A DNA stretch of 31,885 nt from positions 1 through 31,885 of the IMG/VR virus record IMGVR_UViG_3300035187_001784, one strand, 5' to 3'. The notes beneath the pieces are model-generated. The model was not told the DNA's origin. It saw only the letters and a program-made list of their open reading frames with translations, and ran no database searches. Of the stretch, positions 1 to 31,115 are shown piece after piece; positions within the stretch are counted from its first letter, which is position 1, and each line of letters opens with the position of its first letter. The DNA comes from a virus. The position numbers and the translations under genes are program-made.

Positions 1-3000
1 CGGTTTTACAACCGACACTACGGGGGCTTCTGAGGCTTCGCCACCCTCTCTTACGACTAGATAAACATCGGCGGCTCTATCGAATGCTGGTTTATTGATA
101 AATGTTAACGTTGATCCGATAGCTGGATTAGAAGGTACTTCTATCGTCGAATCACTAATTGGAGTTACGATAATAGTCTTATCGATTTCGTCTTCACTTA
201 GCGTCTTATCGATTGAGCTTTCTAGAGTTACTAAACCGCCAGATCCGGTAACGGCCTGACCATTGTAACTAAATACGACACCACCCAATGCTGCCTTAGC
301 TCCGATAGTTGTCCAGTTAACTGTTCCTACTGTCACGATTCGATACTGTCTATTTACAACGAGATTCGATGTTGTTGCGTCTATAGAATCTCTAGATCCA
401 TCGGCTTGCGTTGGCGGTCTCTTACCGTCTAGAACGTACTCGATGTAAGAATTATCAACAAAGTCATCGACGTTATTTTCTAAATAACCGCTAACAGCAG
501 CGGACATAACCCCAGTTCCAAAATCATCGCGAGGATGGAATTTGAAATAATACCATGCGTCTCTTTGGATTGAAGGTCCACCAAGCTGAATAAGATTAAG
601 GTAAGATCTGCCCGGTACGTTATAAACGGCATGTAGATTTTGTTTTGTTTCCGTATCTGGAACGAAAGCACCGCTGCTTCCTGTATAAATATCTACCGAT
701 AAGACATCCTTGTTTGACGTAGACGAGTAGCAGTAGAACTTAATTGTATTGTAGGAAACTTCATCGTAAATAACCGAAACGCCGATTCCCGAGAAACCAG
801 TTTGATTGGACGGAATATCAGCAAAGTCAGAAATGCCTAAGATATTGCCTTTTGTTCTTGGTAGCTGTCTTGGCTCTTCGTAGCCATAAGTTTCCCAATG
901 CTCTCTTCCCCATTGCTCTTTCGTCTTTGTGCCGCCTTCACGAACTTCCGATTCATAGGCACTCAGCAAATCGGGCCATTCATTAACGTATCCTTCGTAA
1001 CTTGGCTCGCCAAGACCAGAGTAATTAATATTTATGCCTTGCAGTGTTCCTACGCCAGAATCATTTAATCCGGTAGCTAATTTAAATGCACCAGAAATAT
1101 CTTTGAACGTAAGCTCTCTAGTTTCATCTTCGCTGCGTAAAAGGCTGGCGGTTTGCCAATCTCTGATACCAGACCCAGATACGATGCCATCGGTTCCGCT
1201 ATTCCATACAGCAACTCTTGTGAATGTTGAATTGCCATAGTAACCAGAGTAAATAAAGTAGGGCGAGAACTGATAAGAATCAACTACATCGATTCTTGAG
1301 TAAGAAGCTGGTACGTTATAGGCGTCATAGCTTCCTGTAAATAAATTATCATTTACGTCTTTAACCACTACTCTGAGCTTATAGTTTCTATTTAGCGGCG
1401 AGTTTGTTGTTTTTGCGTCTGACGTTGTGCCGCGCATCGAAAACTCTTGATTCTTCTCTCTGCTCAATGTATATGAGAAACCTTGATAGCCAGAGATCGC
1501 TTCCAGCATTGTTCCAGCATCGCTAAGAAGTGATACCGTAATTTCTGGAGCGTCAGGGAGAAACGGGTTGTTTCTTAATGAATCTGGCGAATTGATTTTT
1601 GTGCCGACTGGATCGACATAAAACCAACGGAACGTCAAATCTTCCGAAGTAAAGTTGCCTTGGCCTTGGCCAGAGAAGTTCCCACTATACGAAACATCGT
1701 ACTTTAAGCTATCAACGTCCGCTGTTTCAAGATAAAAACCAGTGATTGCAACTCTATCTAATGATTGTCCGCCGATTGAAACTGTTGATAACGGTAAAGC
1801 AACGGCACTAACAGTAGCCGCGTCTTCAGATAAGAATCTATAAGGCGCGGCACCTTGGCTGTAAACGCTGATATCGTACTGACCCCAGTTTGAATTGACG
1901 GGAACCGTATAATTTAAATTAGCCGTGGAAACGGCATCGGTGATCGACCCATCAACGGTGCTAGAGTAATCTGGCCTGCTGATATAAAGCTTATAAAGCG
2001 GAGGAGAGTCTGGAGATGCACCCCAAGAAACATAGATTCCAGTAGTTACGTTAGATCCATCCTTGCGAAGAATTGCGCTAACAGGACCAGTTGGAGGCTG
2101 TGGCTTTATAACTATATCATAAGGAGACTTCACATAAACATTCGGAGACGAGTCCGAAATGTCTCTTTCCACAAAGTTTTCTTTATCTGGATAAAACTCA
2201 ACACCAGCAACTGCGTAATTGTTTGCCTCTTCTTCTTTAACGGAAATCGTCTTATAAAGCTTCGGCTCTACTCCAGAACCACTGAGAAGATAAATCGAAC
2301 CTTCTTCAATTAAATTAATTTTTGTTGGAGTTGTGTCTACTGCTAGCGAGTAAAATCCTCTACCATAACCAGTTCCATAAACTAGACCACTATAGCCAAT
2401 TCCACTGCTTTCGTTTAGTGTTCTGATATCAGACTGTCCAAATGCGCCTCCACCAACATAAACAGAAACTCCAAGACTATCAAACGCGCCAGAAACGTGA
2501 GCGCTTGTTAGTGTTGTGGTGATCGGCACTTTTGTTGAACCGTAGAAGTCTTTCGGGAAGCCGATTGTTCTATAAGTTGTCGCATTTCCTGCCGTCCAAT
2601 AAGTGGCTGAGTCAGTAGCAAATAAAGCCGAAGAAGTGTAGGCGACATTACATGAGTATATCACTCCAGAAACATTTACTATGTTCCCAACCGCGTAAGA
2701 TTTATTCGCTACCCAATCATCGTAGTTAGAGTTCGATGCGTTCCCAACGTCAGCATTAATAAACGTGTAATATGGGGTCATCTTGCTTAGTGCAAGAAGG
2801 TCACGATAATTGAATGTAATCTTGCCAAAGTCGTTTAGGGCTTTCGAAGCTCTTTCTACGATTCTTCCTGCTCCAGATGCAACTTTAACGAGAGCGGCTA
2901 AATAACCGAAAGACGTTGAGACGGCAGATACGTCTTTACCGATCTTGCCGATTTCAGTTGCAGCGTAAGTCGCGAAAGTAGCTGGTGGCGTGACGTTATT

Positions 3001-5616
3001 AGCAACGGCAGCGTTGTTAGAAACTACAACTACAACGTTACCAGCCGTAGCTCCATCAATAAACGTGGCAACATTAGCCAGCGATGCGGTCGTTGAGCTT
3101 TGACTTACTAAAGCTCCAGCAGAATCAAGTTGAATAGCAGTGAAGTATCCGTTGCTGGCCGCGCTACCTACTTGAGAACCGTTAACAGAAACTGTTCCGT
3201 TTGTCCCATTGATAATGCACGACCAGTTGGTTTCATTGCCGATAAGCTGTCCTGTACCAGCGGAACCTTGAATGTCGATATCTATTTCGTTTTCGAGCAA
3301 TACTCCAGAGACTGCCGCAAAATTTAAAGTTTCCCATCTTGGATTGCCAGTTACAGTCGTATTATCTGGGAAAACATAAACCTCTCCGGTCAAAATAGTA
3401 TCGCCAGTGATCGATCCGCCACCAGAAATTCTTCCTTCGATTGGATAGGTTTCGAATATTCCAGATCTCAACAGGAACTCGCCAGTCAGGGTAATTCTCG
3501 ATCCGAATAAGTTATCGTTCGCTACACCATCGGTTACGGTATGGATGTTATAGCGTTGCAGTTGCTGCTGGCGTCTCGCCCTAATATTTTGCAGCGTTCC
3601 AGTAAATTCTCCATCGTTATTGGTCAGGTTGTTCAAGTCCGATACTGAATAGTTGCCAGACGGAACATGAATATAAATACCAGAATCTAATCCAATTGTA
3701 GATGCAGTCCCCTGCTTGAATTCACCATCGATAGAGATTACGTTCGTCGCGTCGTCTACATTTAAAATTCTACCGAACGTTCTAGCGACATTCTTAACCT
3801 CATCGCTAACTGCGAATATGTCGCCGGGTTGTAGGTACGCTGCCTCCATGCCGCCAACAAAAGATACGATATCCGACTCAAACATCGAAGAACAAAGAAC
3901 GTAACGCCCGATTCTTCTAGCTTCTGATCTAGACGTACATCCAGCGGCGTTAATTTTAAATGGATTTAAACCGAACTTTCTAATACCATCAACGTCTTCA
4001 ATGTACTCTACTTTTGTTTTGTAGTTGTCGTACTTGTCATTGTATACAACTTCAACCGATGTGTGGCGAACGTTTCTAGCTGTTTCAGTATATTCGAACG
4101 CGCCACCACGAACGTTGGCATTCGAAAACTGCATTACAGGATCTTGCGGACGGTCGGCGTAGAACGAGAACCCTTCAGTATTCCAGAAAATGATGCCTTT
4201 AAATACTGCGGCAACGTCCCTCAAAACGTTGTAAGCCTCGTCTTTGTTGTAGAAGATTACGTTGTAAGAATAGCGCGGTTCAAGACCGCCCTTGCCGTCT
4301 GGAACGCCTCTGAACACACCTTTATCATCAACGGCGTCACAGTATCTTCCGATATCGTAAAGCGTCCATTTATCTAGGCTCGAAAAATCAATCTGATTGC
4401 CCAAACCATAATTTGTGTTTGTGGCGATATCATAAATGATCCATGCTGGATTATCGGTCCAGCCAAGCTTAAACGTACCGTCCCAATCGCCATAATAGAT
4501 CTTATTGCTATCGTAAAACTTATCGTCGCAAAACTGCTGAAAGTCGATATCCGAATCGTGCATCATATTGAATGCACCACCATTAACTTTGTCGCCTAAC
4601 TCTCTAAATGTTCTTGTTCCAGAAAATGAACTCGCTCCGTAGAAATAATAAAGCTGAATGCAGTTTTCCGTAGCGTATCTAAACAGCCCATCGAATGCAG
4701 CCTCGGTCATTGATTCTGGCGTGTCGCCGCCGAAAAATACGACCTTACGCACAGTGTTTGTCCATATCGAGGAAACGGCAGTAGACTCTAAATCCTTGCC
4801 AACTTCAAGGCTAGGAGCATAAAGATTCTTTCTGATTAAATAAGAGATTACTTCTACCTCTCCATAAGCTGCGGTTACGGTCGCTCCCGACAAAAGCGTA
4901 TCTAGCGATGTGAATAAATTTTGATTATTAGCCCCAGCAGAATCGGGCGTCTTTACCGTCATGAACTGTTCCGAATTATGATAGGTAAAATTAGAAATAG
5001 ATAAGTTGTTGGACAGATCGTATTTATACGATACGCCAGATGCAGTTTTCCAAATCGCGGCTCTTACTGAAGTGTAACCAGCCGTCATCTTCGCAATCAT
5101 TTCCTTTAGGTTGCGCCGAATAAGCGACCTATAGGCGTAACTCATATTTTGATCGACAACGAAAATGATATCTACGTTGTTTGGATTAGCTGGATAATTT
5201 GCGCTTGGATAAACATATCTACGATCTAAACCGTTTCCGCCCAAAGGATAATAGTTCGAAGGAATCTTTACCTTCTTCATTCGAACGTCAAAGGCACGCT
5301 CTGGGAACGAACTGAAAGTTCGCGAATCGAACTTCATACCAACGTGCGCAGTTAGAGGGTACGAGAAATTACGATCAACAACTTCAGTAATACTATCCAC
5401 CGAAACTTCGCGTCTAACTAGCGGAGAAATAGTTTCTTCGCTTCGCTTTTCGATTTTTATGTAGCGATCCTTACCGTCAACAGACTCTGGAAGGATAATC
5501 TCGTCCTGCGAATCAAGAATATTAGTCTTTTGCGCAGTCTTAGAGAATGTGCTTTGAGAAGAATCGGTTGGATTTTCTGCTCCTTTTGCGAATCTAAACG
5601 GATTTAAAATTTTCAT
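1..5616 (-). CDS. Tail tip protein, J-like large C-terminal part (partial, runs off left edge)
   Basis: Open for about 1,870 codons from the ATG at 5614-5616 to the window edge, so the C-terminus is missing. It should form the central tail tip/host-contact protein. The motif NPAWIIYDIATNTNYGLG (about residues 389-406) matches the lambda J family. Residues about 147-350 look like a von Willebrand factor A domain: a hydrophobic strand ending in D155-x-N157-x-S159, then VVFFGGDTPES with D298. Further on are a carbohydrate-binding-like module (about 961-1009), a fibronectin III-like domain (about 1170-1255), a WGREHWETYGYEEPRQLP motif (about 1565) and a WTTIGA-type module (about 1750-1795). The N-terminus MKILNPFRF repeats that of the gene at 6166-6999. 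An AGGA sits directly against the ATG, too close for a normal SD. The J assignment is strong; the receptor is unknown. Confidence 0.9.
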   Translation of the reverse strand, partial: MKILNPFRFAKGAENPTDSSQSTFSKTAQKTNILDSQDEIILPESVDGKDRYIKIEKRSEETISPLVRREVSVDSITEVVDRNFSYPLTAHVGMKFDSRTFSSFPERAFDVRMKKVKIPSNYYPLGGNGLDRRYVYPSANYPANPNNVDIIFVVDQNMSYAYRSLIRRNLKEMIAKMTAGYTSVRAAIWKTASGVSYKYDLSNNLSISNFTYHNSEQFMTVKTPDSAGANNQNLFTSLDTLLSGATVTAAYGEVEVISYLIRKNLYAPSLEVGKDLESTAVSSIWTNTVRKVVFFGGDTPESMTEAAFDGLFRYATENCIQLYYFYGASSFSGTRTFRELGDKVNGGAFNMMHDSDIDFQQFCDDKFYDSNKIYYGDWDGTFKLGWTDNPAWIIYDIATNTNYGLGNQIDFSSLDKWTLYDIGRYCDAVDDKGVFRGVPDGKGGLEPRYSYNVIFYNKDEAYNVLRDVAAVFKGIIFWNTEGFSFYADRPQDPVMQFSNANVRGGAFEYTETARNVRHTSVEVVYNDKYDNYKTKVEYIEDVDGIRKFGLNPFKINAAGCTSRSEARRIGRYVLCSSMFESDIVSFVGGMEAAYLQPGDIFAVSDEVKNVARTFGRILNVDDATNVISIDGEFKQGTASTIGLDSGIYIHVPSGNYSVSDLNNLTNNDGEFTGTLQNIRARRQQQLQRYNIHTVTDGVANDNLFGSRITLTGEFLLRSGIFETYPIEGRISGGGSITGDTILTGEVYVFPDNTTVTGNPRWETLNFAAVSGVLLENEIDIDIQGSAGTGQLIGNETNWSCIINGTNGTVSVNGSQVGSAASNGYFTAIQLDSAGALVSQSSTTASLANVATFIDGATAGNVVVVVSNNAAVANNVTPPATFATYAATEIGKIGKDVSAVSTSFGYLAALVKVASGAGRIVERASKALNDFGKITFNYRDLLALSKMTPYYTFINADVGNASNSNYDDWVANKSYAVGNIVNVSGVIYSCNVAYTSSALFATDSATYWTAGNATTYRTIGFPKDFYGSTKVPITTTLTSAHVSGAFDSLGVSVYVGGGAFGQSDIRTLNESSGIGYSGLVYGTGYGRGFYSLAVDTTPTKINLIEEGSIYLLSGSGVEPKLYKTISVKEEEANNYAVAGVEFYPDKENFVERDISDSSPNVYVKSPYDIVIKPQPPTGPVSAILRKDGSNVTTGIYVSWGASPDSPPLYKLYISRPDYSSTVDGSITDAVSTANLNYTVPVNSNWGQYDISVYSQGAAPYRFLSEDAATVSAVALPLSTVSIGGQSLDRVAITGFYLETADVDSLKYDVSYSGNFSGQGQGNFTSEDLTFRWFYVDPVGTKINSPDSLRNNPFLPDAPEITVSLLSDAGTMLEAISGYQGFSYTLSREKNQEFSMRGTTSDAKTTNSPLNRNYKLRVVVKDVNDNLFTGSYDAYNVPASYSRIDVVDSYQFSPYFIYSGYYGNSTFTRVAVWNSGTDGIVSGSGIRDWQTASLLRSEDETRELTFKDISGAFKLATGLNDSGVGTLQGININYSGLGEPSYEGYVNEWPDLLSAYESEVREGGTKTKEQWGREHWETYGYEEPRQLPRTKGNILGISDFADIPSNQTGFSGIGVSVIYDEVSYNTIKFYCYSSTSNKDVLSVDIYTGSSGAFVPDTETKQNLHAVYNVPGRSYLNLIQLGGPSIQRDAWYYFKFHPRDDFGTGVMSAAVSGYLENNVDDFVDNSYIEYVLDGKRPPTQADGSRDSIDATTSNLVVNRQYRIVTVGTVNWTTIGAKAALGGVVFSYNGQAVTGSGGLVTLESSIDKTLSEDEIDKTIIVTPISDSTIEVPSNPAIGSTLTFINKPAFDRAADVYLVVREGGEASEAPVVSVVKP

Positions 5617-5629
5617 CTCCTAAGTAATA

Positions 5630-6160
5630 TTATTCTGTAATCGTAAATGTTCTAACTCCATCTGTGCCACCAGTTAATTTAACTACTCCCTTTGGAGATT
5701 GAGCGTCGATATAAATTGTATGAGAGCCAGTAGCTAACTGAGAGGTAATTTCGGCTGGAATGGTAAACGAAAAATTGCCGCTGCTATCTATTTCTTGACC
5801 ATTAGCAAATACAACGATTGGCTGATTGCCTTGCGCTGACGGAGTGTCTATTCGCGCCTCCAAAGAAATAGCTGGTTTAGTGACGGTTGTCGCTCCAGAA
5901 GTCGCTTTAAAAGTAGCTGTGCCTGTTAAAGTGATAACGGCACCTTTAGCATAAGAAGCTGAAGACAAGGCATTAAACGTGGCCGTTGTTCCACTTTCTC
6001 CGACTAACGTATAAGTATAGTTAGCTACCGAAGCATACGGATTAGAGAACGGAGATCTGGCAATCTTTTTTAAGAAATAAATCAAACCAAGAGAAGTGGA
6101 ATAGTTTCTCTTGTTTAATTTGATCGCGGCCAACTCTTCTGGTGTGTATTGAATAGACAT
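5630..6160 (-). CDS. Small Ig-like beta-sandwich tail protein (176 aa)
   Basis: Lies between the two J-like pieces, 5 bases after the upstream gene and 13 bases before the large J-like start, so it belongs to the tail-tip operon. Residues 1-40 are mixed (LGLIYFLKKIARSPF). The rest is Thr/Ser/Ala/Gly-rich alternating strands, such as GAVITLTGTATF and GSHTIYIDAQSPKG, ending in RTFTITE. This pattern is typical of bacterial Ig-like or decoration domains. I recognise no specific family. It could be a tip decoration protein or a fibre connector. No SD precedes the ATG, so translation probably depends on coupling. Confidence 0.8.
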   Translation of the reverse strand: MSIQYTPEELAAIKLNKRNYSTSLGLIYFLKKIARSPFSNPYASVANYTYTLVGESGTTATFNALSSASYAKGAVITLTGTATFKATSGATTVTKPAISLEARIDTPSAQGNQPIVVFANGQEIDSSGNFSFTIPAEITSQLATGSHTIYIDAQSPKGVVKLTGGTDGVRTFTITE

Positions 6161-6165
6161 GTCAA

Positions 6166-6999
6166 TTATGGCGTGATCACTGGGATGTTCTTATAGATAT
6201 CGTCGGTTCCGAAATCAATCGGAGCGACCGTAGCGCGAGAACCGATTCCGCCAACCATAGAAGCAGGATTATAGTTGGTATTGATGTAGTAAGCGGACCC
6301 TTCTCTTTCTGCGTCTTCGATTGTACCGTCGCCAATAGTATAAGCGTATGGAGACTGAACGAGTCCGTGGAAGTTAACGTCTTTAATTTGAATATTTGGA
6401 TCTCCGTCTAAACCCCACATCAAGCGTAAATTAAGTGTAGATTCCTTTGCTGTTCCGGCAGTCTTACCAGAGTCTACCGTGTCAGACAAAGCCTCTATGA
6501 GAAAATTAACTCTTAGCCGTTTTACGTCACGATTTCTAATCTGATATGTAAATATGAACGGGTCTTGCGGCGTTGAAGGCCATCCGTCACTTGAACGCGC
6601 CCAGCTAGTGAAGTTTCTGCCGTCGCTTTTTATATCGTCTTGAGTAGTGATTGGACCTAGCAATTTAAAACCAGCAGGCTTTGTAATGTAGGCGTTTTTA
6701 AAACTCGGCAAGGATTTCTGTTTCTCTGTTCCAAAATTAACCTCGACCATTATACTGCGATAATTATATTCTCCATTGGCATTCATGACAGGAACGCCAT
6801 TGAGATAAATACCTTTAAGCATATCCAAGCCGTAAACTTTTTTCCCGAATGGATCGACAATGCCCTCGATTGGACCTTCGCAAAGCAAATCTACGATCTC
6901 TGCTACAGAAATAGATTTTTTGAGCTTCTTTGTAGAATCTGGAGGTTGAAGAACCGCTTCCATTCCTCTGAAAAATCTTAAAGGATTGAGAATCTTCAT
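6166..6999 (-). CDS. Tail tip protein J, N-terminal domain as a separate protein (277 aa)
   Basis: The segment SVAEIVDLLCEGPIEGIVDP (about residues 31-50), followed by a short strand and IYLNGVPVMNANGEYNY, is the N-terminal signature of lambda J-type proteins. In lambda J this is one end of a chain of more than 1,100 residues; here the frame stops after 277. The remaining J homology resumes in the gene starting at 5616. The first residues MKILNPLRFFRGME resemble the start of that downstream gene (MKILNPFRFAKGAE), suggesting duplication of the start region. The ATG lies one base after the stop of the I-like gene with no SD, which implies coupled translation. Likely a tip component at the tail-tube end. 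Confident on family; the split is read directly from the sequence. Confidence 0.9.
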   Translation of the reverse strand: MKILNPLRFFRGMEAVLQPPDSTKKLKKSISVAEIVDLLCEGPIEGIVDPFGKKVYGLDMLKGIYLNGVPVMNANGEYNYRSIMVEVNFGTEKQKSLPSFKNAYITKPAGFKLLGPITTQDDIKSDGRNFTSWARSSDGWPSTPQDPFIFTYQIRNRDVKRLRVNFLIEALSDTVDSGKTAGTAKESTLNLRLMWGLDGDPNIQIKDVNFHGLVQSPYAYTIGDGTIEDAEREGSAYYINTNYNPASMVGGIGSRATVAPIDFGTDDIYKNIPVITP

Positions 7000-16776: not shown

Positions 16777-17022
16777 ATGCCCTCCGTCACCATCTTTTCC
16801 TCCTCGGACATTAAAGAGGTTTACGACGTTTGCAAAGAAGCTTCCGCAAGCTTTTTAAAACATTTTAAATTCCAAGCTGAATTTGGCATTTCTCACAAGA
16901 CTACCGAGAAAGTTTACTCGCTCGTAGCTCATGACGTGAACTCCGTTGAACAGAAGTTCTTGGAAACGAGCGTCTTAGAAATTTCTCAAAAAAAGTTGAA
17001 GAAACCTGTTGACGGTTCTTAA
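16777..17022 (+). CDS. Unknown small protein (81 aa)
   Basis: Starts with ATG two bases after the previous stop. It reads MPSVTIFSSSDIKEVYDVCKE, then a mixed helix/strand region. No motif recognised. Its 3' end contains the -35 element of the rIIA promoter (17009-17014). Confidence 0.65.
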   Translation: MPSVTIFSSSDIKEVYDVCKEASASFLKHFKFQAEFGISHKTTEKVYSLVAHDVNSVEQKFLETSVLEISQKKLKKPVDGS

Positions 17023-17036
17023 AAGTGTGGTAGATT
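17009..17036 (+). promoter_or_regulatory. Sigma70-like promoter for rIIA-rIIB
   Basis: TTGACG at 17009-17014, 16-base spacer, TAGATT at 17031-17036. The expected +1 is near 17043, leaving a leader of about 17 bases with no SD before the ATG at 17060. This is also the reason for rejecting the in-frame TTG at 17009 as the rIIA start. Confidence 0.6.
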
Positions 17037-17059
17037 GTTGCTCGAAACTAATTGCTCCA

Positions 17060-19207
17060 ATGATTGTTAAACAGATCCAACGCAACGTTGTTCAGTCTCA
17101 CGATTTCAAGTCCGAAATCGCTTCCATCGATGTGGCCGAAATGCGGTACGTCTCGTCGCTGCTCCGCAACAACTATTCGAATCCGATCCTTGCTACCGTG
17201 CGCGAGATTATCGCGAATGCCGTAGATGCTAATCGCGGCGATCAAGCAGTCGTCGTTACCGCTCCGACACGCTTCGATCAGACGTTCAAGGTGCGCGACT
17301 TTGGTGCTGGCCTGAGCGAAGAAGATTTGTTCGGTCTCTACACGAAGTACGGTCGTTCGACGAAGCGCGACGAGAATCTTTCGATTGGCGGCTTTGGCAT
17401 CGGACGCTTTGCTCCGCTGTCTTATACCGATGCGTTCACCGTCACGTCGATTCACGGCGGCGAGAAGACGGTCGTCTCCGTATTCGTTGACGAGCACGGC
17501 GACACTCGCTTCACGAAGCTGCACGGCAGCACGACTAACGAGCCGAGCGGCGTAGAGATCGAAGTTGCCGTTAAGGACAGCGACATCTCGGCTTTCGAAT
17601 CTTCGATCAAGAAGGTTGCGCGTTTTCTCTCGCAAAAGATCGAGTATCGCAACATTGAAGTTAAAGCGGTCGAGTGGGCGATTAAGAACGAAAGCTGGGG
17701 TATCGTCTCGGATCGTTCAGTTAGCGGGTGCTGCGCCGTGATGGGCGGCATCGCTTATCCGGTCACGAACATCGACTTCTCGTCGCATCTCTCTCCTGAG
17801 CGTCATCCGAACATCTGTAAGATCCTGCAAGGCAATAGCCGCGATCTTTTTTCGATGAATCTCGTTATGTTCCTGCCGATTGGATCGGTGCAGCTTCATC
17901 ACTCTCGCGAGCAGCTAGAGTACAATTCGACGACAAAGCGGGTACTTTTGGCCACGCTTGAGTCTATTTTTTCTGAATTAAAAACGAGCATCCAAAGCAA
18001 GCTCGACGCCAAAAAGACCGTCTCGGAGTTCTTTACCGAGATGCAGCTAATCTTCAGCGACCGCTACTCGATTTCTTCGCTCGTCGCAGGCAATCCTTTC
18101 TTCTTTACTGCCCCAGACGGCTCAAAGCATCCCGTATCGTATCTCGATAGGTTTCAAAACAAGTACAGTTGGCGCAGAAAGAACGGTGGAGCGTTCATGC
18201 GCCGACTCAAGCAGAGCGTCTCCGTATCTCCGTGCGATTACGTTATGCAAGCAGCGTCTGGAGAGCGTATGGTTACGCTGATCGTTGATGACGTTAATGG
18301 TCGTCTTATTCCTTCGCGCATCGATTCGTTTGCCGTTGCAAATCTGGACGCGACGACTGTCGTCACGATCTCTGACGAGGAGGCGCAAAAGTTTCTTTTC
18401 AGCTTCATGAACGACAATGAGCGCAAGTCTCTCGTCAAGGCGTCTTCAATCGTTCCGTTCAAGAAGAAGAAGAATGCGGACCTCGCTTTGCGCATCGCTT
18501 ACGATCACAATTCGTACAACTCTGGTTCTTTCATAAGCTCGGACAAGGCAATGGCTCCGAGCAACGAGCCGTTTTACTTTGTCTACGTTGCAAACAACAC
18601 GACTTCTCTTTCGTTTTATCCGAGGCAGGATTTGACTCGCGGTCAGTTCCGCGACGTTGTGCATCTCGTCAATAACTTTCTCGATGATGACGATCAAGTT
18701 AAGCGTGTTTTCATCATGAAGAGCGGCGTTGAACTGCCAGCAAATGCTGTCTCGCTAGACGAATATTTTTGCAAAAAAATCAAGGAGACTTTCGAAAAGA
18801 ACTCGGCTCATTTCAAAGTCAAGCAAAAGGCGTCTCTTTATCGTTCCGAGATGGGTCACTCTCAGCGTTTGGTCGAATTGGCCGCGAAGCTTCCTGCCGA
18901 TCACGTTATCTCCGTCTTTGCGCGGAACTCGACGGAAGACATGAAGGCTTCTAATTTGAAGCCAAGCGAACAGCGAAAGCAGCAGGACTTTATGTCCTTT
19001 CTGAATCGAATCGCTGGCGACTGGACGAACAACAACGTTTCTGACGTTACGGCAAACAGCGAAGGCAAGGCCGAAGCGCAAAAGGTTGTCAACGAGATCA
19101 ATGCCAAGTATCCGATGATTGCCCTCATGATGGACATTTGGAACTGGAACAAAGAGCACTTCGAAAGAACCTTGCAGTATATTTTGTTCGTAGACAAGCA
19201 TTCCTAA
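17060..19207 (+). CDS. rIIA: RIIA-like GHKL-type ATPase protein (715 aa)
   Basis: The N-terminal domain carries the GHKL ATP-binding motifs in T4 rIIA style: VREIIANAVDA (Glu49, Asn53, Asp56), VRDFGAGLS (Asp80 to Gly84) and SIGGFGIGRFAPLSYTDAF (about 108-126). Length is near that of T4 rIIA. The gene is followed 33 bases later by an rIIB homologue, the conserved pair order. In T4, rIIA/rIIB are membrane-associated and block abortive infection triggered by the RexAB exclusion system; the biochemical activity is not settled. The start at 17060 (MIVKQIQRNVV) sits just after a promoter. Very long minus-strand open frames opposite this gene are composition artefacts. Confidence 0.9.
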   Translation: MIVKQIQRNVVQSHDFKSEIASIDVAEMRYVSSLLRNNYSNPILATVREIIANAVDANRGDQAVVVTAPTRFDQTFKVRDFGAGLSEEDLFGLYTKYGRSTKRDENLSIGGFGIGRFAPLSYTDAFTVTSIHGGEKTVVSVFVDEHGDTRFTKLHGSTTNEPSGVEIEVAVKDSDISAFESSIKKVARFLSQKIEYRNIEVKAVEWAIKNESWGIVSDRSVSGCCAVMGGIAYPVTNIDFSSHLSPERHPNICKILQGNSRDLFSMNLVMFLPIGSVQLHHSREQLEYNSTTKRVLLATLESIFSELKTSIQSKLDAKKTVSEFFTEMQLIFSDRYSISSLVAGNPFFFTAPDGSKHPVSYLDRFQNKYSWRRKNGGAFMRRLKQSVSVSPCDYVMQAASGERMVTLIVDDVNGRLIPSRIDSFAVANLDATTVVTISDEEAQKFLFSFMNDNERKSLVKASSIVPFKKKKNADLALRIAYDHNSYNSGSFISSDKAMAPSNEPFYFVYVANNTTSLSFYPRQDLTRGQFRDVVHLVNNFLDDDDQVKRVFIMKSGVELPANAVSLDEYFCKKIKETFEKNSAHFKVKQKASLYRSEMGHSQRLVELAAKLPADHVISVFARNSTEDMKASNLKPSEQRKQQDFMSFLNRIAGDWTNNNVSDVTANSEGKAEAQKVVNEINAKYPMIALMMDIWNWNKEHFERTLQYILFVDKHS

Positions 19208-19240
19208 TTTCGCCAGCAACAACACTAAAAGCATAAAAAA

Positions 19241-20329
19241 ATGAACAAGCCAGCATACATCATGCGCGACGAATCGATCACGGTTTTCTGTGACGGTAAG
19301 CCGCACACTATCAACAGCACGCACGTTAATTTTCGCGCTTTGCGCAAGGCAATTCTTGACGCCAAGTACGATGAGATTCCGCCGTTGCTTTCTATCGAAG
19401 GGAAGATTGCCGACATGACGCACGGCAACGTTAAGATCGTGAACGAAAAGCTCTACTATCGGAACTTCGAAGTTCACGGCGTCGTTGTCGATAAGCTGTT
19501 TAAGATGCTCAAGGAAGGCGCGTCTGACGCAACTTCACTGATTAACTTCATCGAGCGCATCATGCGCAATCCGTCCGCAAACTCGGTCAACGAGCTTTAC
19601 ACGTTCCTCTCGTATCGCGATTTGCCGATCACGCCTGACGGTAAGTTCCTCGCTTACAAGGGAGTTAAAAATGATTTTTACTCAAAGCACGGCAACGCAA
19701 GCACGATTGTTTTGCAGGGGAAGGTTAACTCGTCTGGCGAAATCTACAACGGAGTCGGGGAAACTATCGAAGTCTCGCGCAATCAAGTTGACGACAACAA
19801 GGATAGACACTGCTCGTTCGGCTTGCACGTTGGAAGCTACAACTACGCTAACGACTGGGCAGGAAGTGACGGTCGGCTGCTCGTAGTTGAAGTCGATCCA
19901 GCCGATGCGGTTAGCGTTCCTACCGACTCTTCGTTCCAGAAGCTTCGCGCTTGCAAGTACAAGGTCGTCTCGGACATCACGGCAGACCGCAAGGAAATCC
20001 CCGATACGGTCTATAACTACAGCGACGATGTTCAAGAGAGCGATTGCGACGGCTATTGCGAGCGTTGCGACTGCGAGAATGGCGACTGCGACAATGGCGA
20101 CAATATCTACGACATGGACTTTAGCGATGCGATGGGCGAAGCGAGCGACTATATCGCTTGGGTCGATAAGAATGGAGGTTCGGTGCTTGAGAGCGGTCTT
20201 CGTGGCCAACTTGCAGTCGCTGGCCTCGATCACGTCGATTTTGACGATCTTCTTTCTGCGATTGGCTACATCAGCGTTCCGAGCCTATTCCATGACTCTG
20301 CGTTGATCGTAAAGGACACTTCCGTTTAA
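19241..20329 (+). CDS. rIIB: RIIB-like protein with Cys/Asp-rich insertion (362 aa)
   Basis: Matches T4 rIIB in its conserved centre: NELYTFLSYRDLPITPDGKF (about 117-136), LAYKGVKNDFY, VEVSRNQVDDN-type strand, HCSFGLHVGSYNYANDW (about 189-205) and LLVVEVDPADAVSVPTDSS, then LRACKYKVVSDI. After this core comes an unusual acidic cysteine-rich stretch, DCDGYCERCDCENGDCDNGD (about 268-287), which may bind a metal ion. It should act with the upstream rIIA protein. The leader is A-rich (CATAAAAAA before ATG) without an SD. Confidence 0.9.
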   Translation: MNKPAYIMRDESITVFCDGKPHTINSTHVNFRALRKAILDAKYDEIPPLLSIEGKIADMTHGNVKIVNEKLYYRNFEVHGVVVDKLFKMLKEGASDATSLINFIERIMRNPSANSVNELYTFLSYRDLPITPDGKFLAYKGVKNDFYSKHGNASTIVLQGKVNSSGEIYNGVGETIEVSRNQVDDNKDRHCSFGLHVGSYNYANDWAGSDGRLLVVEVDPADAVSVPTDSSFQKLRACKYKVVSDITADRKEIPDTVYNYSDDVQESDCDGYCERCDCENGDCDNGDNIYDMDFSDAMGEASDYIAWVDKNGGSVLESGLRGQLAVAGLDHVDFDDLLSAIGYISVPSLFHDSALIVKDTSV

Positions 20330-24919: not shown

Positions 24920-25747
24920 TTAATCATTTGACCTTTTCTTTTCTAAGAACTTTTTCATCCTAAAGCTATTTGACGGAATCATAATGTTCATCTGTTTGCA
25001 TCTTTTTTTTAATCCATTATCGGTTAAACCAAATTTTGCAGCCAAATCTCTCATTGTGTTTTCTAGCAATAGTTTTTGCAATTCTTCCTTGTCTGGAAGC
25101 TTTGTTTTAGGTAAATGTTTCCTAGCGCAGTTTTTGCAACGTTGCGAATGCTTTCCAATTTTTTTATCGCAATCTAGACACTTTTTTTCTTTATTAAGTT
25201 CAAAAAATACTTCATACTGAAACTTATCTAAGGGTCTATAGTGAAATTGGATATCACAATTCTCTTCTAAAGAATTATTTCGGTTTCGAATACCGATAGA
25301 CCCGCCATTTTCCCAAACATCATAATCAAAATCATTCACAACTTGCGACTTTAAAACTTCTTCCGTTAAATTTTTGATATACTCTTTGTTGTAGCACAAT
25401 GAATAATGAATTTCAATCACCTTCCATCCAGCCGCTTCGATTAAATTATGCCTATTTTGATAATATGGCTTTAATTTTCCATCCGCTTCATAATGCTGAT
25501 TTCCATTAATTTCGAAAGCTATCATCTTTTCTGGGAAAGCAATATCTAAAGAAAAGTATCGATCTTCTAGTGCTTTGAATTCTTCGATGAATCTAACTCC
25601 TTCTTTTCTTAAAAAAGATTTAAAATTTTCACACGGAACCGATTTAAAAATAGATCTTCTTTTCCAAGGATGTTTGCCTTCATTTTCCTTTAGCCATTTT
25701 TTACGTTTTTCTGATATTTTCTTTCTTGATTCGGCAGTATGATTCAT
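24920..25747 (-). CDS. Homing-type endonuclease: NUMOD3, VSR/EDxHD-like nuclease, zinc ribbon, HTH (275 aa)
   Basis: N-terminal NUMOD3-like motif (HTAESRKKISEKRKKWLKEN, residues 3-22). The nuclease core spans about 40-120: Glu55/56, Asp68 in SLDIAF, and E79-I-N-G-N-Q-H85-Y, the pattern of the Vsr-like/EDxHD group of phage homing endonucleases. Then a zinc ribbon with C190, C193, C204 and C207, and a C-terminal helix-turn-helix (about 221-254, MRDLAAKFGLTDNGLKKRC) for DNA recognition. The DNA is clearly more AT-rich than flanking genes and lies on the opposite strand next to a tRNA, consistent with a mobile free-standing homing gene. Target unknown. Confidence 0.85.
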   Translation of the reverse strand: MNHTAESRKKISEKRKKWLKENEGKHPWKRRSIFKSVPCENFKSFLRKEGVRFIEEFKALEDRYFSLDIAFPEKMIAFEINGNQHYEADGKLKPYYQNRHNLIEAAGWKVIEIHYSLCYNKEYIKNLTEEVLKSQVVNDFDYDVWENGGSIGIRNRNNSLEENCDIQFHYRPLDKFQYEVFFELNKEKKCLDCDKKIGKHSQRCKNCARKHLPKTKLPDKEELQKLLLENTMRDLAAKFGLTDNGLKKRCKQMNIMIPSNSFRMKKFLEKKRSND

Positions 25748-25813
25748 ATTTAGATTTACACTTACAAAATATAAAAAATTAACAAAATATCATTTCTAAG
25801 TTCAATTCTCTCT

Positions 25814-25889
25814 GGTCCTGTAGCTCAACGGTTAGAGCAGAGGACTCATAATCCTTTGGTTCTGGGTTCGAATCCCAGCGGGACCACCA
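25814..25889 (+). tRNA. tRNA with CAT anticodon, probably tRNA-Ile2
   Basis: Acceptor GGTCCTG/CGGGACC, D stem GCTC/GAGC, anticodon stem GAGGA/TCCTT with loop CTCATAA, T stem CTGGG/CCCAG with TTCGAAT, discriminator A, encoded CCA. Bases C4 and C5 of the acceptor stem and the general resemblance to E. coli tRNA-Ile2 favour an isoleucine tRNA whose C34 is modified to lysidine by TilS to read AUA. Elongator Met is the alternative. Confidence 0.93.
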
Positions 25890-25925
25890 ATTTAGAAAAA
25901 TGATCGGCGCGTTTTATCATCGTTA

Positions 25926-26267
25926 ATGACGAAAGTTTGCCGCCGATGCAGTCAAAAGAAAAATATCGAAGATTTCCCGTTGTTTTCGGGGCAACAAACG
26001 GGCCGAAAAAATACTTGTTCAACGTGCTGCAACGATTTGTCGGTACTTCGTAAAAGGTTAAAGCAAGAAAACCCGCCGCCGCCAGCGGGAGAATGTCCGA
26101 TTTGCCAAAACTTAACGCACGACTGGATCTTAGATCACTGCCACTTCACGAACGAATTTCGCGGCTATATCTGCAACAACTGCAATCTTGCGCTCGGTCG
26201 TTTCAATGACGACGAGAGATTATTGCGAAGAGCTATTGACTATTTGAACAACAACGTAAAGAGTTGA
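25926..26267 (+). CDS. Endonuclease VII-type HNH nuclease (113 aa)
   Basis: Matches the recombination endonuclease VII/HNH family: C57-P-I-C60, then WILDHCHFTNEFRGYICNNCN (D70, H71, H73, C83, C86, N87) followed by LGRFNDDERLLRRAIDYLNN. Four cysteines would hold the structural zinc, with Asp70/His71/Asn87 at the active site. An extra N-terminal C-x-x-C pair set (C5, C8, C31, C34) suggests a second zinc site. It lies between two tRNA genes, so it may be a homing nuclease as readily as a Holliday-junction resolvase for packaging. It lacks the long C-terminal part of T4 gp49. Confidence 0.85.
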   Translation: MTKVCRRCSQKKNIEDFPLFSGQQTGRKNTCSTCCNDLSVLRKRLKQENPPPPAGECPICQNLTHDWILDHCHFTNEFRGYICNNCNLALGRFNDDERLLRRAIDYLNNNVKS

Positions 26268-26279
26268 TTGTTAGTTTTT

Positions 26280-26362
26280 GGTCGTGTGCTGAAACTGGTA
26301 GACAGATTCGACTTAAAATCGAATGTCCGTAGGACGTGTGGGTTCAAATCCCACCACGACTA
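26280..26362 (+). tRNA. tRNA-Leu (anticodon TAA)
   Basis: Class II tRNA: acceptor GGTCGTG/CACGACT (with a G1-U72 wobble), D arm with CTGG/TAGACAG region, anticodon stem TTCGA/TCGAA with loop CTTAAAA (anticodon TAA), long variable arm GTCC-GTA-GGAC, T stem GTGGG/CCCAC with TTCAAAT. CCA is not encoded. End positions may shift by one base. Confidence 0.92.
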
Positions 26363-26374
26363 AACTTAATTTTT

Positions 26375-26632
26375 ATGCAAAAAAATCTTATCAGCAATTT
26401 GGCGAGGCAAGTGAATCGCTTAGTCTGGGACCAAGTATATGACCAAGTGAACGAACAAGTGGAGAGCCGAGTGCGGAACCAATTGTGGGGCCAAGCGGAG
26501 AATCAAGTAACAAACCGACTGTGGGTCCAAGTGGAGATCCAAATGGCGAACCAAGTGGCGAGGCAAGTGAATAGTCAAGTGAAGAGCCAAGTGTGGACCC
26601 AAGTGCAAAAAAAACTGCGCAACAACCTATGA
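26375..26632 (+). CDS. QVxx-repeat protein, array member 1 (85 aa)
   Basis: Start at the ATG at 26375 (MQKNLISNLARQV), 12 bases after the tRNA-Leu; an earlier in-frame start would lie in the tRNA. Nearly the whole protein is a four-residue repeat, Q-V/L-x-x, for example WDQVYDQVNEQVESRV and NQVARQVNSQVKSQV, with aromatic Trp often before the Q. It ends in KKLRNNL. No cysteine or catalytic signature. The regular polar/hydrophobic spacing could form a long amphipathic helix or a repeat scaffold. Function unknown. The stop overlaps member 2 (ATGA). Confidence 0.85.
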   Translation: MQKNLISNLARQVNRLVWDQVYDQVNEQVESRVRNQLWGQAENQVTNRLWVQVEIQMANQVARQVNSQVKSQVWTQVQKKLRNNL

Positions 26633-26829
26633 AACGCGAAAATCTTATCCGCCAGCTACGAGGCCAAGCGTCGATACAAGTGAGTGGTCAAGCGCAGATT
26701 GAATTCCAAAACCAATTATGGAACCTAGTGAACAAGCGAGTGAGCAGCCGAGTGTGGAGTCGAGTAGCGATCCAAGTGGAGAGCCAAGTGCGGGATCAAG
26801 TGGGGGAGCAACTGCGTAACAACCTATGA
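26629..26829 (+). CDS. QVxx-repeat protein, array member 2 (66 aa)
   Basis: Start at the ATGA junction (26629), giving MKRENLIRQLRGQ; an in-frame upstream start would read into member 1. Repeats are looser in the middle (QAQIEFQNQLWNLVNKRV) and regular at the end (SRVAIQVESQVRDQVGEQ). Ends LRNNL like member 1. No SD is visible, so translation should depend on reinitiation after member 1. Confidence 0.85.
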   Translation: MKRENLIRQLRGQASIQVSGQAQIEFQNQLWNLVNKRVSSRVWSRVAIQVESQVRDQVGEQLRNNL

Positions 26830-27050
26830 AACACGAAAATCTTATCAGCGAGTTACAGGATCAACTGCGGAGCCAAGTGCGGGTCCGAGTGGAGAGTCAA
26901 GTGGGGAACCAACTGTATGACCAAGTGGTGAGCCAAATGGCGAACCAAGTGCGGAACCAAGCGTGGCACGAAATGCGGAGTCAAGTGTGGAACCAAGTGA
27001 GGGGCCAAGTAGCTAACCAAGTGGCGAGTCAAGTGCGTAACAATCTATGA
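26826..27050 (+). CDS. QVxx-repeat protein, array member 3 (74 aa)
   Basis: MKHENLISELQDQLRSQV leader, then about 15 four-residue units including RVESQVGNQLYDQVVSQM and SQVWNQVRGQVANQVASQ, ending VRNNL. The leader and end are nearly the same as in members 1 and 2, while the inner x-x positions differ. This suggests duplication followed by unit-level recombination. Coupled by ATGA to members 2 and 4. Confidence 0.86.
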   Translation: MKHENLISELQDQLRSQVRVRVESQVGNQLYDQVVSQMANQVRNQAWHEMRSQVWNQVRGQVANQVASQVRNNL

Positions 27051-27274
27051 AACGCGAAAAATTTATTAATCAATCAAAAAAATTAGTAGAAGCGCAAGTG
27101 GAGAGTCGAGTGCGGAGCCGAATAAGAATCCAAGTGCGGAGCCAACTAGAAAGCCAAGTAGATAGACAAATGCGGGATCAAACGCAGGACCAAGTGTGGG
27201 GCCGAATCGGTAGGCAAGTAGTGGAGCGAGTTGAGAATCGAGTCAGATTTCAATTGCGAGAGGAATTTCCATAA
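27047..27274 (+). CDS. QVxx-repeat protein, array member 4 (75 aa)
   Basis: MKREKFINQSKKLVEAQV leader. The repeat continues with more Arg and Ile (SRVRSRIRIQVRSQLESQ; GRIGRQVVERVENRV). It ends REEFP rather than RNNL, so the C-terminal signature is lost here. Joined to member 3 by ATGA and to member 5 by a one-base TAATG overlap. Confidence 0.84.
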   Translation: MKREKFINQSKKLVEAQVESRVRSRIRIQVRSQLESQVDRQMRDQTQDQVWGRIGRQVVERVENRVRFQLREEFP

Positions 27275-27498
27275 TGAAACGCAAAAAACTTATCAGCAAG
27301 CTACGAGACCAAGTGTGGAGCCAAGTGGAGAGCCAAGTGGGGAACCAAGTGGCGAGCCAAGTGGGGAACCAAATGTGGAGTCAAGCGCGAGGAAAAGCGC
27401 GTGGCCAAGCGTGGGGCCAAGTGCAAAACCAATTGTTGGACCCAGTTAGGAGCCAAGTGCGTGACCAAGTGCGGGACAAAATACACGACAACCCATGA
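27274..27498 (+). CDS. QVxx-repeat protein, array member 5 (74 aa)
   Basis: The most regular member: MKRKKLISKLRDQVWSQV, then SQVGNQVASQVGNQMWSQ. Its centre switches to Q-A units (ARGKARGQAWGQVQNQ) before returning to RSQVRDQVRDKIHDNP. The DNA also shows an open frame in +1 (27231-27449) made of Gly-Glu-Pro-Ser units; this is a by-product of the 12-base period. ATGA to member 6. Confidence 0.86.
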   Translation: MKRKKLISKLRDQVWSQVESQVGNQVASQVGNQMWSQARGKARGQAWGQVQNQLLDPVRSQVRDQVRDKIHDNP

Positions 27499-27713
27499 AG
27501 CGCGAAAAACTTATCAGCGAGATACGCGACAGAATACGGAGCGAAACGTGGAATCGAGTTGACGATCAACTATGGAGCGAAGTACACGCTCATGTAGAGA
27601 GCCAAACAGCGAAAAAGTTGGAACTACTAGCGCAAAGTCAAATCTGGAGTCGATTGTGGAATCGACAGCAACGTCTCGTGCGGTTGCAAGTACAAGAATC
27701 TTATGAAATGTAA
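27495..27713 (+). CDS. QVxx-repeat family protein, degenerate, member 6 (72 aa)
   Basis: The leader MKREKLISEIRDRIRSET is intact but the repeat is eroded to scattered pairs (NRVDDQLWSEVHAHVESQ; SQIWSRLWNRQQRLV). Still an open frame with similar length and composition, so it is probably translated. It overlaps member 7 by 11 bases. Confidence 0.78.
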   Translation: MKREKLISEIRDRIRSETWNRVDDQLWSEVHAHVESQTAKKLELLAQSQIWSRLWNRQQRLVRLQVQESYEM

Positions 27714-27897
27714 AAACGTTATCGATGAGATTAAGTATCAAATGTACAAACGGGCGTCGAGTTCGATGACCACCGAAGTCGCAAACAAACTGCGAGACGA
27801 AATAGTGATGCAAATGTGGGCGCGAGTGCGCGGCCAAGTGCGTAGTCGAATCTACAACAAAATCGTAATGGAAGTGGGTTATCGGCCTATTTTATGA
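27703..27897 (+). CDS. QVxx-repeat family protein, degenerate, member 7 (64 aa)
   Basis: Leader MKCKNVIDEIKYQMYKRA is diverged; a residual repeat is seen in MWARVRGQVRSRIYNKIV. Start chosen at the ATG giving the leader that aligns with its neighbours. ATGA to member 8. Membership rests on position, length and leader rather than repeat purity. Confidence 0.72.
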   Translation: MKCKNVIDEIKYQMYKRASSSMTTEVANKLRDEIVMQMWARVRGQVRSRIYNKIVMEVGYRPIL

Positions 27898-28118
27898 AAC
27901 AAAAAAAACTTTTCAACGAATTGCGAAACACGCTCGATCAAGCTTGGATTCAAGCAACGAAACCAATAAGTGATTTGTCGTTGGCTCAAACGAGTTTAAT
28001 CCAAAAAGAAATGGACGGCAGATTTAGAGTTTCGGTTGCGCTTCAAATGCGCCATTCGCAAGTTAACGAAATACAAAATAAGATTCAATCAGAAATGTAC
28101 CGAATAGCGGCGTTATGA
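27894..28118 (+). CDS. Array member 8, strongly diverged (74 aa)
   Basis: Leader MKQKKLFNELRNTLDQAW keeps the Lys-rich start and the Leu-Ile/Phe position of the family. The rest (ISDLSLAQTSLIQKEMDG; QVNEIQNKIQSEMYR) has Q-rich helical character without a strict period. ATGA overlaps on both sides place it in the same translational chain. Confidence 0.72.
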   Translation: MKQKKLFNELRNTLDQAWIQATKPISDLSLAQTSLIQKEMDGRFRVSVALQMRHSQVNEIQNKIQSEMYRIAAL

Positions 28119-28342
28119 ATGCCAAACAATCGATTCACAAATTTAGAAAATTGGTGCGAGCCGAGGCTACGAATCAATCGGACACTTCAATTTATGATTT
28201 AAATAATAGCATTCAGCTATTCGATGCGAGGGAAGAGTTAAAAACGGAAGTGATTGCGCAGATTTCTGTTGACTTAGTAGGCGTCGTTCAGTTAAGAGTA
28301 GGGAACGAAACGCGAAACAGAGTTCTCGACTCATTATTATGA
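28115..28342 (+). CDS. Array member 9, strongly diverged (75 aa)
   Basis: MNAKQSIHKFRKLVRAEA start, then mixed helix and strand, with a weak remnant (VVQLRVGNETRNRVLDSLL) at the end. Same length class and ATGA junctions as its neighbours. Not recognisable on its own; family membership is inferred from position and leader. Confidence 0.7.
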   Translation: MNAKQSIHKFRKLVRAEATNQSDTSIYDLNNSIQLFDAREELKTEVIAQISVDLVGVVQLRVGNETRNRVLDSLL

Positions 28343-28431
28343 AGCGCGAAAAACTTACCAGCGAGATACAAAGCCAAGTGGTGAACCAAGTGTGGAGTCA
28401 AATGTGGAGTCAAGTGAGAGAGCAAATATGA
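28339..28431 (+). CDS. QVxx-repeat protein, shortened, member 10 (30 aa)
   Basis: A short frame starting in the ATGA at 28339. Leader MKREKLTSEIQSQV is a near-perfect family leader, followed by VNQVWSQMWSQVREQI and a stop in the next ATGA. It looks like a member that lost about 45 residues by internal repeat deletion, keeping frame and coupling. Confidence 0.75.
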   Translation: MKREKLTSEIQSQVVNQVWSQMWSQVREQI

Positions 28432-28511
28432 ACAATAAAAACCTTATCAGCGATTCGCACAGCAAACTTGTGGTTCAATTAGCAAATCAAGTGCGCGGAG
28501 AGTCAATTTAA
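28428..28511 (+). CDS. QVxx-repeat protein, shortened, member 11 (27 aa)
   Basis: MNNKNLISDSHSKLVVQL, then ANQVRGESI and TAA. It carries the NLIS leader seen in members 1-3 and only one clear Q-V unit. Joined to member 10 by ATGA; 4 bases separate it from member 12. Either a deletion relic or a minimal functional form. Confidence 0.65.
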   Translation: MNNKNLISDSHSKLVVQLANQVRGESI

Positions 28512-28515
28512 AACA

Positions 28516-28764
28516 ATGAACAATCGAACGATAAAAAAAATGAATAAAAAATTGCGCGCCAATTTGCTTCGCGAAAGAAACCGACTCGCGAGAGATTTTT
28601 TTCTAAAAATAATCACTGATCCTCGATTCGCGAACAAGCTTTCCACCGACACATCGTCGATTATTCTGCGAGACATCGTAGACAAAATTTTCCGCGAAGT
28701 AGATTTAGCTGTTCGCGACAAGATTCTTGAACTTTTTTCAAAAAAAGAGTTCGAAACCGCTTGA
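28516..28764 (+). CDS. Array member 12 or unrelated basic helical protein (82 aa)
   Basis: MNNRTIKKMNKKLRANLL start resembles the array leaders only loosely. The rest is a charged helical protein (RNRLARDFFLKIITDP; IILRDIVDKIFREVDLAV) without the four-residue period. Its stop lies within the -35 of the promoter for the DUF6745-like gene. It could be a fully diverged paralogue or a separate small gene at the end of the chain. Confidence 0.68.
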   Translation: MNNRTIKKMNKKLRANLLRERNRLARDFFLKIITDPRFANKLSTDTSSIILRDIVDKIFREVDLAVRDKILELFSKKEFETA

Positions 28765-28817: not shown

Positions 28818-29876
28818 ATGAAGAAGATTGAAAAACTGACCGAAGAACAAGAGAAGAAAATTCCCATCTACCTTGAAGAGTGGGTACGTCGGGGTCTCAC
28901 TACCGAGCGCAAGACGCTCGTCGATGCCGAGCGCGATTTCACTGCTTTCCAGCGGCTTGTGCTGAATCGCTCAAACCCTGCCCCCGTTGTGCTGCTCGAT
29001 TCGCCAGCCGAGTGTTGGCGCGTCGTTGCGACCGAAACGGCTCGCAATCACCCCGAAGTCAAGACGGAGCTTGCGAAGATCGAAAAGGATGTTGTCGCGA
29101 AGCTCACGAAGGCCGAAACGACAAAGAAGCGCAAGCTCACGAAGGCTAAGTTCGACGAGCGCGTGCGCGAGAAGGTTGAAGCCGAGCAGAACGCCTTCAT
29201 CGAGTCTCTCGTTAAGGACCAGAAGATCGTGTATCCGTACTTCGACTGTCAGTTCTGGGCCGGATGGTTCTCGTTCTACGAGTTCTGCCGCAACGAACTC
29301 GGAATTAAGTTTGACAATATCGAGGCTTACACGGCTCTCTTGAACTGCCAGCCTTACGGCATGGTTTGGCCACTCGACACGCTTTGCGTCGTTTGCCAGC
29401 CGCCAACGATCATCAATAAGAACAACCTCGGCTTGCATTGCGAGGACGGTCCCGCTCTCTCTTACAGCGGAGCGAATGAGATTTACGCTTTGAACGGCGT
29501 TACCGTTCCGAAGCAACTCGTTATGACTCCTGCCGAAGAGCTTTCGCTCGACTTCTTCAAGAAGGAAAAGAACGCTGACGTTAAGGCAGAGTTTGTTCGG
29601 AAGTTCGGTGTTGAGCGAATGCTCGACTTTGGCAAGCTCGTTGACAGTTACAAGAACTACGACGAGAAGTCTCACGACTGGTGGCATCGTAGCGAGTACG
29701 AGCTTCACGATATGAAGAACTTGTTCGGCGTCGATTATCAGCCGTACCTGAAGATGCTGAATCAGACGACCGGAATCTGGCACGTCGAAGCAGTTTCGCC
29801 GCAGTGCCGCACGCTCAAGGACGCGATCAAGGAACGTTTCGGAGGTCGCGAGATGAAGATCGTTGCTATCGCGTAA
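28818..29876 (+). CDS. DUF6745-like protein (352 aa)
   Basis: Motifs I associate with DUF6745 proteins appear in order: LTEEQEKKIPIYLEEW (about 7-22), VVLLDSPAECWRV (57-69), FDCQFWAGWFSFYEFC (142-157), GLHCEDGPALSYSG (205-218) with YALNGVTVPKQLV (223-235), then VKAEFVRKFGVERML (255-269). The His-Cys-Glu-Asp-Gly-Pro-Ala motif is characteristic. Bacterial members often carry a long Q-(V/L)-x-x repeat between the DSP and FW motifs (recollection); here that place (about 75-135) is a Lys/Glu-rich helix, while Q-V-x-x frames lie directly upstream as separate genes. Molecular function unknown. It is driven by its own strong promoter and followed by the small partner gene. Confidence 0.75.
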   Translation: MKKIEKLTEEQEKKIPIYLEEWVRRGLTTERKTLVDAERDFTAFQRLVLNRSNPAPVVLLDSPAECWRVVATETARNHPEVKTELAKIEKDVVAKLTKAETTKKRKLTKAKFDERVREKVEAEQNAFIESLVKDQKIVYPYFDCQFWAGWFSFYEFCRNELGIKFDNIEAYTALLNCQPYGMVWPLDTLCVVCQPPTIINKNNLGLHCEDGPALSYSGANEIYALNGVTVPKQLVMTPAEELSLDFFKKEKNADVKAEFVRKFGVERMLDFGKLVDSYKNYDEKSHDWWHRSEYELHDMKNLFGVDYQPYLKMLNQTTGIWHVEAVSPQCRTLKDAIKERFGGREMKIVAIA

Positions 29877-30800: not shown

Positions 30801-31115
30801 ATGAATAATCAACAAGCCTTATCCAATATTGAACTGCTTCACCGCCAAGTTCGTTTGACGCCCGAAGCTCACGAAGCGATCAAGGAATCGATCTCGGTTT
30901 TCAAGAATCGAATCGACAACACTGCCGCAACTTCGAACATCTCAATCGAAAATGCTTTCAATAACTTGGTCGCGATGTACAATGCGTCATCGCTGACGTT
31001 ATCCGAGCACGAAGCTTTGAAGGCGAGCTTCCAAGCGTTAGTCGCTCTCGTTCAGCCAGTAAACGAGCCAGTAAACGAGCCAGAAAAGGTTAAAAAGACA
31101 ATTAAACAACTCTAA
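30801..31115 (+). CDS. Unknown helical protein with VNEP repeat (104 aa)
   Basis: Leader AACCTACTAAAC before ATG, no SD. Two similar helical segments are visible: VRLTPEAHEAIKESISVFKN (about 17-36) and LTLSEHEALKASFQALVALV (about 66-85), suggesting an internal duplication of a helix-turn unit. The C-terminus has a direct VNEPVNEP repeat (DNA CCAGTAAACGAG twice) then a Lys-rich end. Function unknown. Confidence 0.7.
   Translation: MNNQQALSNIELLHRQVRLTPEAHEAIKESISVFKNRIDNTAATSNISIENAFNNLVAMYNASSLTLSEHEALKASFQALVALVQPVNEPVNEPEKVKKTIKQL

Follow-up and report, generated by a model that had tools for sequence, protein, structure and literature searches.

What does a phage gain from a run of a dozen small, overlapping genes that repeat a Gln-Val-x-x motif, and where did such a run come from? 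The run lies in the window, by which we mean the whole 31,885-nucleotide stretch of viral DNA analysed here, and the original prediction, made from the letters alone, read it as a possible diversification device that produces many variant amphipathic scaffolds from one mRNA. The coupled small-gene array is real: 12 consecutive frames occupy 26375-28764 on the + strand, 11 of them small array frames and one aperiodic (28516-28764), with tRNA-Leu (26279-26363) as the upstream limit and 28764 as the downstream limit. The main members are 64-85 codons long, and members 10 and 11 are shortened to 30 and 27 codons, as had been proposed. The key neighbour, overlooked in the original prediction, is a DUF6745 gene that starts 54 bases downstream of the array. 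The array and this gene are laid out as follows:

26375..26632, + strand: array member 1, 85 aa, periodic
26629..26829, + strand: array member 2, 66 aa, periodic, ATGA overlap with member 1
26826..27050, + strand: array member 3, 74 aa, periodic
27047..27274, + strand: array member 4, 75 aa, periodic
27274..27498, + strand: array member 5, 74 aa, periodic, TAATG junction, predicted single helix
27495..27713, + strand: array member 6, 72 aa, period degenerate
27703..27897, + strand: array member 7, 64 aa, period degenerate, 11-base overlap with member 6
27894..28118, + strand: array member 8, 74 aa, period almost gone
28115..28342, + strand: array member 9, 75 aa, period almost gone
28339..28431, + strand: array member 10, 30 aa, short, periodic
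28428..28512, + strand: array member 11, 27 aa, short
28516..28764, + strand: member 12, last small gene of the array, 82 aa, aperiodic, doubtful as a member
28818..29876, + strand: DUF6745 protein, 352 aa, matching PF20530 (5.1e-11) and phrog_31813 (8.8e-14), proposed partner of the array

Eight junctions within the array are of the ATGA type (1-2, 2-3, 3-4, 5-6, 7-8, 8-9, 9-10 and 10-11), one is TAATG (4-5) and the remaining overlap, at 6-7, spans 11 bases; the eight ATGA and one TAATG had been counted correctly, as had the MKREKLIS-like leader common to most members. Since at least five further ATGA junctions occur outside the array in the same phage (12244, 13230, 15027, 20602, 20901), this translational overlap is not peculiar to the array. 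Tandem Repeats Finder detected 12-, 24- and 36-base periods in the array, whose 12-base unit is CAAGTG NNN NNN. When the proteins were shuffled, none of 20,000 shuffles showed a four-residue period as strong as that of members 1-7 and 10 (P<=5e-5); the period was marginal in members 8 (P=0.09), 9 (P=0.007) and 11 (P=0.06), and none was found in member 12 (P=0.38). These results bear out the strict Q-V-x-x period described for members 1-5. The companion claim, that members 6-9 lose it, agrees with the marginal values for 8 and 9 but not with members 6 and 7, which keep a degenerate period. GTG accounts for 37 of the 46 valine codons in the units (80%), compared with 11% in the large genes of the window, an excess that indicates descent of the array units from a recent common unit. 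A second 12-base tandem repeat (95% match) lies at 31054-31087 of the window, in the gene at 30801-31115, and encodes VNEP repeats.

The neighbouring gene (28818-29876) matches PF20530 at 42.7 bits against a Pfam cut-off of 27, and its product contains no internal tetrad units. None of the array members tested matches the PF20530 core; their likeness is only to the variable middle segment of DUF6745 proteins, outside the Pfam core, where the same tandem (Q/S/A)(V/L)x(D/N/S/G/A) units stand in register as in members 1-7 and 10. Searches with the array members found no Pfam family over its cut-off and nothing in PHROGs or NCBIfam, blastn against named phages gave no match, and PADLOC models of anti-phage defence proteins gave only weak and short matches (best 0.0065, in the repeat segment). 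The remark that no phage module of this kind is known agrees with the outcome of a literature search largely confined to journals outside subscription, which found no description of such an array and no paper on DUF6745 or on repeat strings. We know of no function or structure for DUF6745 proteins or their tetrad repeat. The locus belongs to a non-structural part of the genome, close to rIIA/rIIB-like genes, tRNAs and endonuclease VII. The RIIA- and RIIB-like genes are adjacent to each other (window 17009-20329), and the tRNA genes for Arg, Met and Leu, with the endonuclease VII gene among them, lie just upstream of the array (window 25232-26363).

Homologous arrays were looked for in related phages and are present in many. 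Viral contigs were scanned blindly for six in-step Q-V codon pairs, which gave at least 120 stretches. Among the matches listed, many have a DUF6745 protein carrying the repeat inside, others are free gene arrays and some are unrelated simple repeats, and most of the larger array contigs also carry a DUF6745 gene. Viral DUF6745 genes fall into two classes: most encode 5-66 internal tetrads, placed between an N-terminal domain and the conserved DUF6745 core, and the others encode almost none, including some that lie near free Q-V-x-x genes. The unit type of the window occurs inside the fused proteins of contigs L012, L037, L098 and others. Because the Q-V scan selects on the repeat itself, a second search used the DUF6745 core motif alone and yielded 62 loci. 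With lineages clustered at 85% identity and at least 5 internal units counted as repeat-bearing, free arrays accompany 0 of 37 repeat-bearing lineages versus 6 of 14 repeat-free ones (Fisher P=1.7e-4), a contrast that is weakened, not reversed, by the end-cut state of some records. On a tree of 94 DUF6745 cores the free state changes 7 times, with at least 4 of the changes forced by well-supported branches. The repeat is linked to DUF6745, and its fused and free forms alternate with repeated switching; a recurrent array for which we found no description stands at the centre of an unstudied protein family.

The closest viral relatives of the window DUF6745 led to the most direct comparison of the two forms. 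L012 carries ~60 Q-V-x-x units inside DUF6745, between the N-terminal domain and the core, and its sister in the core tree, L013, comes from the same metagenome and has the free form. The L013 DUF6745 is split in two, with the N-terminal half at 2811-3128 and the core gene at 5833-6834. Gene order runs from the N-terminal half through nine Q-V-x-x genes to the core and then dozens more Q-V-x-x genes, so that the run begins in the gap between the DUF6745 halves and amounts to ~45 genes in 12.8 kb. The arrangement varies in other phages: the array lies upstream of DUF6745 in the window lineage and downstream of it in L010 and L011, between a cytidylyltransferase gene and the next conserved gene. 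Array genes occupy both strands in L053 and L082, and the idea that all variants come from one mRNA is thus not general. On L067, a 102-kb contig with ~20 repeat matches and no DUF6745, the array runs into both contig ends.

Related phages also differ in the arrays themselves, and turnover is rapid at both unit and gene level. A single 12-base unit is the sole difference between L076 and L084 in 9.6 kb, and L056 carries 24 bp more than L121 and L068, in frame; these 12 or 24 bp differences between contigs that are >99% identical substantiate the suggestion that units can change without frameshift. At the gene level, whole arrays differ between phages whose flanks are 95-98% identical: L010 and L011 have 2 and 6 periodic members despite flanking blocks that are 93-97% identical, L273 and L276 are 97.6-98% identical to near the DUF6745 end and then carry different arrays, and two adjacent array genes of L273 are identical. 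In L009, the sole near-identical contig found for the window, the array is the same over the overlapping half.

We favour, at somewhat better than even confidence for the whole reading, an explanation in which the array is an un-fused DUF6745 tetrad segment. The segment that the window DUF6745 lacks would be supplied by ~ten small paralogous proteins, each free-standing, whose genes lie just upstream. The set would be remade continually, by slippage of 12-base units inside genes and by duplication, loss or replacement of whole genes, while selection would maintain the backbone (Q/S/A)-(V/L)-x-(D/N/S/G/A) and diversify the x residues. The free members may work in trans, on the DUF6745 protein or together with it, and the x residues may form a variable binding surface. 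Given the non-structural setting of the locus, near rIIA/rIIB-like genes, tRNAs and endonuclease VII, the driving pressure might be conflict inside the infected cell.

Diversification at x was assessed from pairs of units, and pairs within one gene are not independent. Within a gene, units differ from one another mainly in the two x codons, and there mainly in the first and second bases. Over 159 free genes, pN/pS at x3+x4 was 1.52, with 128 of the 159 above 1 (P=3e-15); it was 1.41 in L013 (20/20 genes), and at x3 of fused genes it reached 5.05. Other Q-V period-4 frames from bacterial contigs, a negative control drawn from pattern-scan matches in bacterial genomes that are mostly unrelated simple repeats, gave 0.90 (P=0.5). 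For the window alone the value was 1.02 (three genes). An excess of amino-acid change at x is thus a property shown across the family and is not detectable in the window alone. The proposed diversification device finds its evidence in the relatives, with their unit and gene turnover and pN>pS at x, and applies to this window only indirectly. A ratio near 1, one of three things that the original prediction had named together as pointing to a non-functional repeat expansion, appears at x in the three window genes but not across the 159 free genes.

These ratios bear on an unlikely alternative, in which an in-frame-open 12-base repeat amplifies neutrally or selfishly where the genome tolerates it, with products of little or no effect. 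Such an expansion would account for the value of ~1.0 in the window but not for the excess at x elsewhere in the family, which other Q-V period-4 frames of bacterial contigs do not share. Among the L010/L011 members, a periodic one (pN/pS 0.97) fits it and an aperiodic one (0.37) does not. The weak period of members 8, 9 and 11 and its absence from member 12 are compatible with decay of useless products, yet ~45 consecutive genes stay open in L013. In seven contigs with DUF6745 and neither form, no Q-V-x-x run was found; the repeat is thus dispensable for some phages, as a passenger would be, although the switch between forms has happened repeatedly and the free and fused forms exclude each other. 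The valine codon differs between phages (GTG, GTC or GTT) for one protein pattern, which argues that the protein is what is kept.

A purely structural role, with long helices or a repetitive polymer (coiled coil, filament or beta-solenoid) serving as a length-varying assembly or scaffold that needs no variable target, also seems improbable to us. AlphaFold2 models member 5 as one continuous helix (pLDDT 87.5, pTM 0.38), in keeping with such a role, and repeats of this kind are readily over-predicted as helix. For the fused protein of L037, the models of the N-terminal domain and the core were good, and that of the repeat had a pLDDT of only ~45. Structure prediction, one of the checks originally suggested, thus returned a helix for a single member and very low confidence for the fused repeat, and the amphipathic scaffold stays conjectural. 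The period and the hydrophobic position are constant even where QL, SL, SV or AV replaces QV in other lineages, as a scaffold would require; however, 28% of fused units have glycine at x3, and along free genes the x3 residues follow no order distinguishable from a shuffled one at lags 1-11, which argues against fixed higher-order stacking. The amino-acid excess at x would also be unexpected for a pure scaffold. Foldseek comparison of the fused DUF6745 model with the PDB gave no match at E<=0.001 (best VIA-align Z 4.2), comparison with viral models returned essentially only DUF6745 itself and unnamed phage proteins, and solved structures searched by profile yielded nothing beyond chance-like matches. 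That the 12-base units are DNA iterons or RNA sites with incidental frames is hardly credible: the units are indeed DNA repeats, and V is GTG in most units of the window phage, but other phages use GTC or GTT for the same residues, or QL, SL or AV in their place, indels keep the frame, and the repeat lies in frame inside a conserved protein.

Comparison with known systems places the un-fused segment closest to the DUF6745 proteins themselves (PF20530; phrog_31813), which carry the same tetrad repeat internally and whose gene adjoins the window array; the difference is that the window repeat is divided among separate genes and the window DUF6745 protein is without it. Diversity-generating retroelements are phage loci that vary a protein at set positions of an otherwise constant frame, a likeness to the array. 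The array differs from them in varying by duplication or loss of units and genes, and its varied codons are mostly NGG and not adenine-rich. Of 14 array contigs, 13 (the window record and 12 others) yielded no reverse transcriptase, in records that may be fragments; the L013 contig (G028, 368 kb) has a reverse transcriptase domain at 117430-118020, ~220 kb from its array. Repeat proteins with hypervariable positions, such as TAL effectors, likewise combine a constant repeat frame with variable residues per repeat and a copy number altered by recombination, but the TAL effector unit has 34 residues, against four in the array, which moreover consists of many separate small genes. Pentapeptide repeat proteins, like the array, repeat a very short peptide in tandem and have a single hydrophobic position in it; the array period is four residues (12 bases), not five. 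To our knowledge, no system described so far has converted a repeat inside one protein into a series of variable genes.

If the un-fused reading is true, phages have a route other than retroelements to keep a library of variant small proteins, one that arises from a single protein's internal repeat and grows to a run of up to ~45 genes. It would predict a physical partnership between the array members and the DUF6745 protein of one locus, and the DUF6745 family, known from bacteria, plasmids and prophages as well, would gain its first testable hypothesis on the variable part. A more specific and rather doubtful extension is modular recognition, in which the backbone would stay constant and each tetrad would present one variable x. 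Dozens of such strings, either fused to DUF6745 or serving it, would form a library that binds changing targets of hosts or rivals. The residues at x3 are mainly W, R, G, E, S and Y, encoded by NGG, GAG and AGY/TAT codons.

Few named phages carry DUF6745: Microcystis phages, MW202476 and a Mycobacterium abscessus prophage with a fused QLxx repeat. The MW202476 record (L137) and the prophage record (L135) hold fused variants with SSLx and QLxx repeats, respectively. We considered whether the SSLx repeats are QVxx DNA in another frame and dropped the idea, as the variable residues do not fit. In L254 and L287, from a Ruegeria genome and a viral contig, the DUF6745 cores are close relatives, and the internal units number 9 and 33. 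DUF6745 genes carried on plasmids of two Deinococcus and two Streptomyces (L326, L327, L340, L341) adjoin a cluster of the STM4011-STM4015 type, which contains radical SAM proteins, a hydrolase and two further families; among the papers listed by our literature search, largely confined to journals outside subscription, none names STM4011 or STM4015. In the DUF6745 protein of L326, the N-terminal part looks like leucine-rich repeats, in place of the tetrad repeat.
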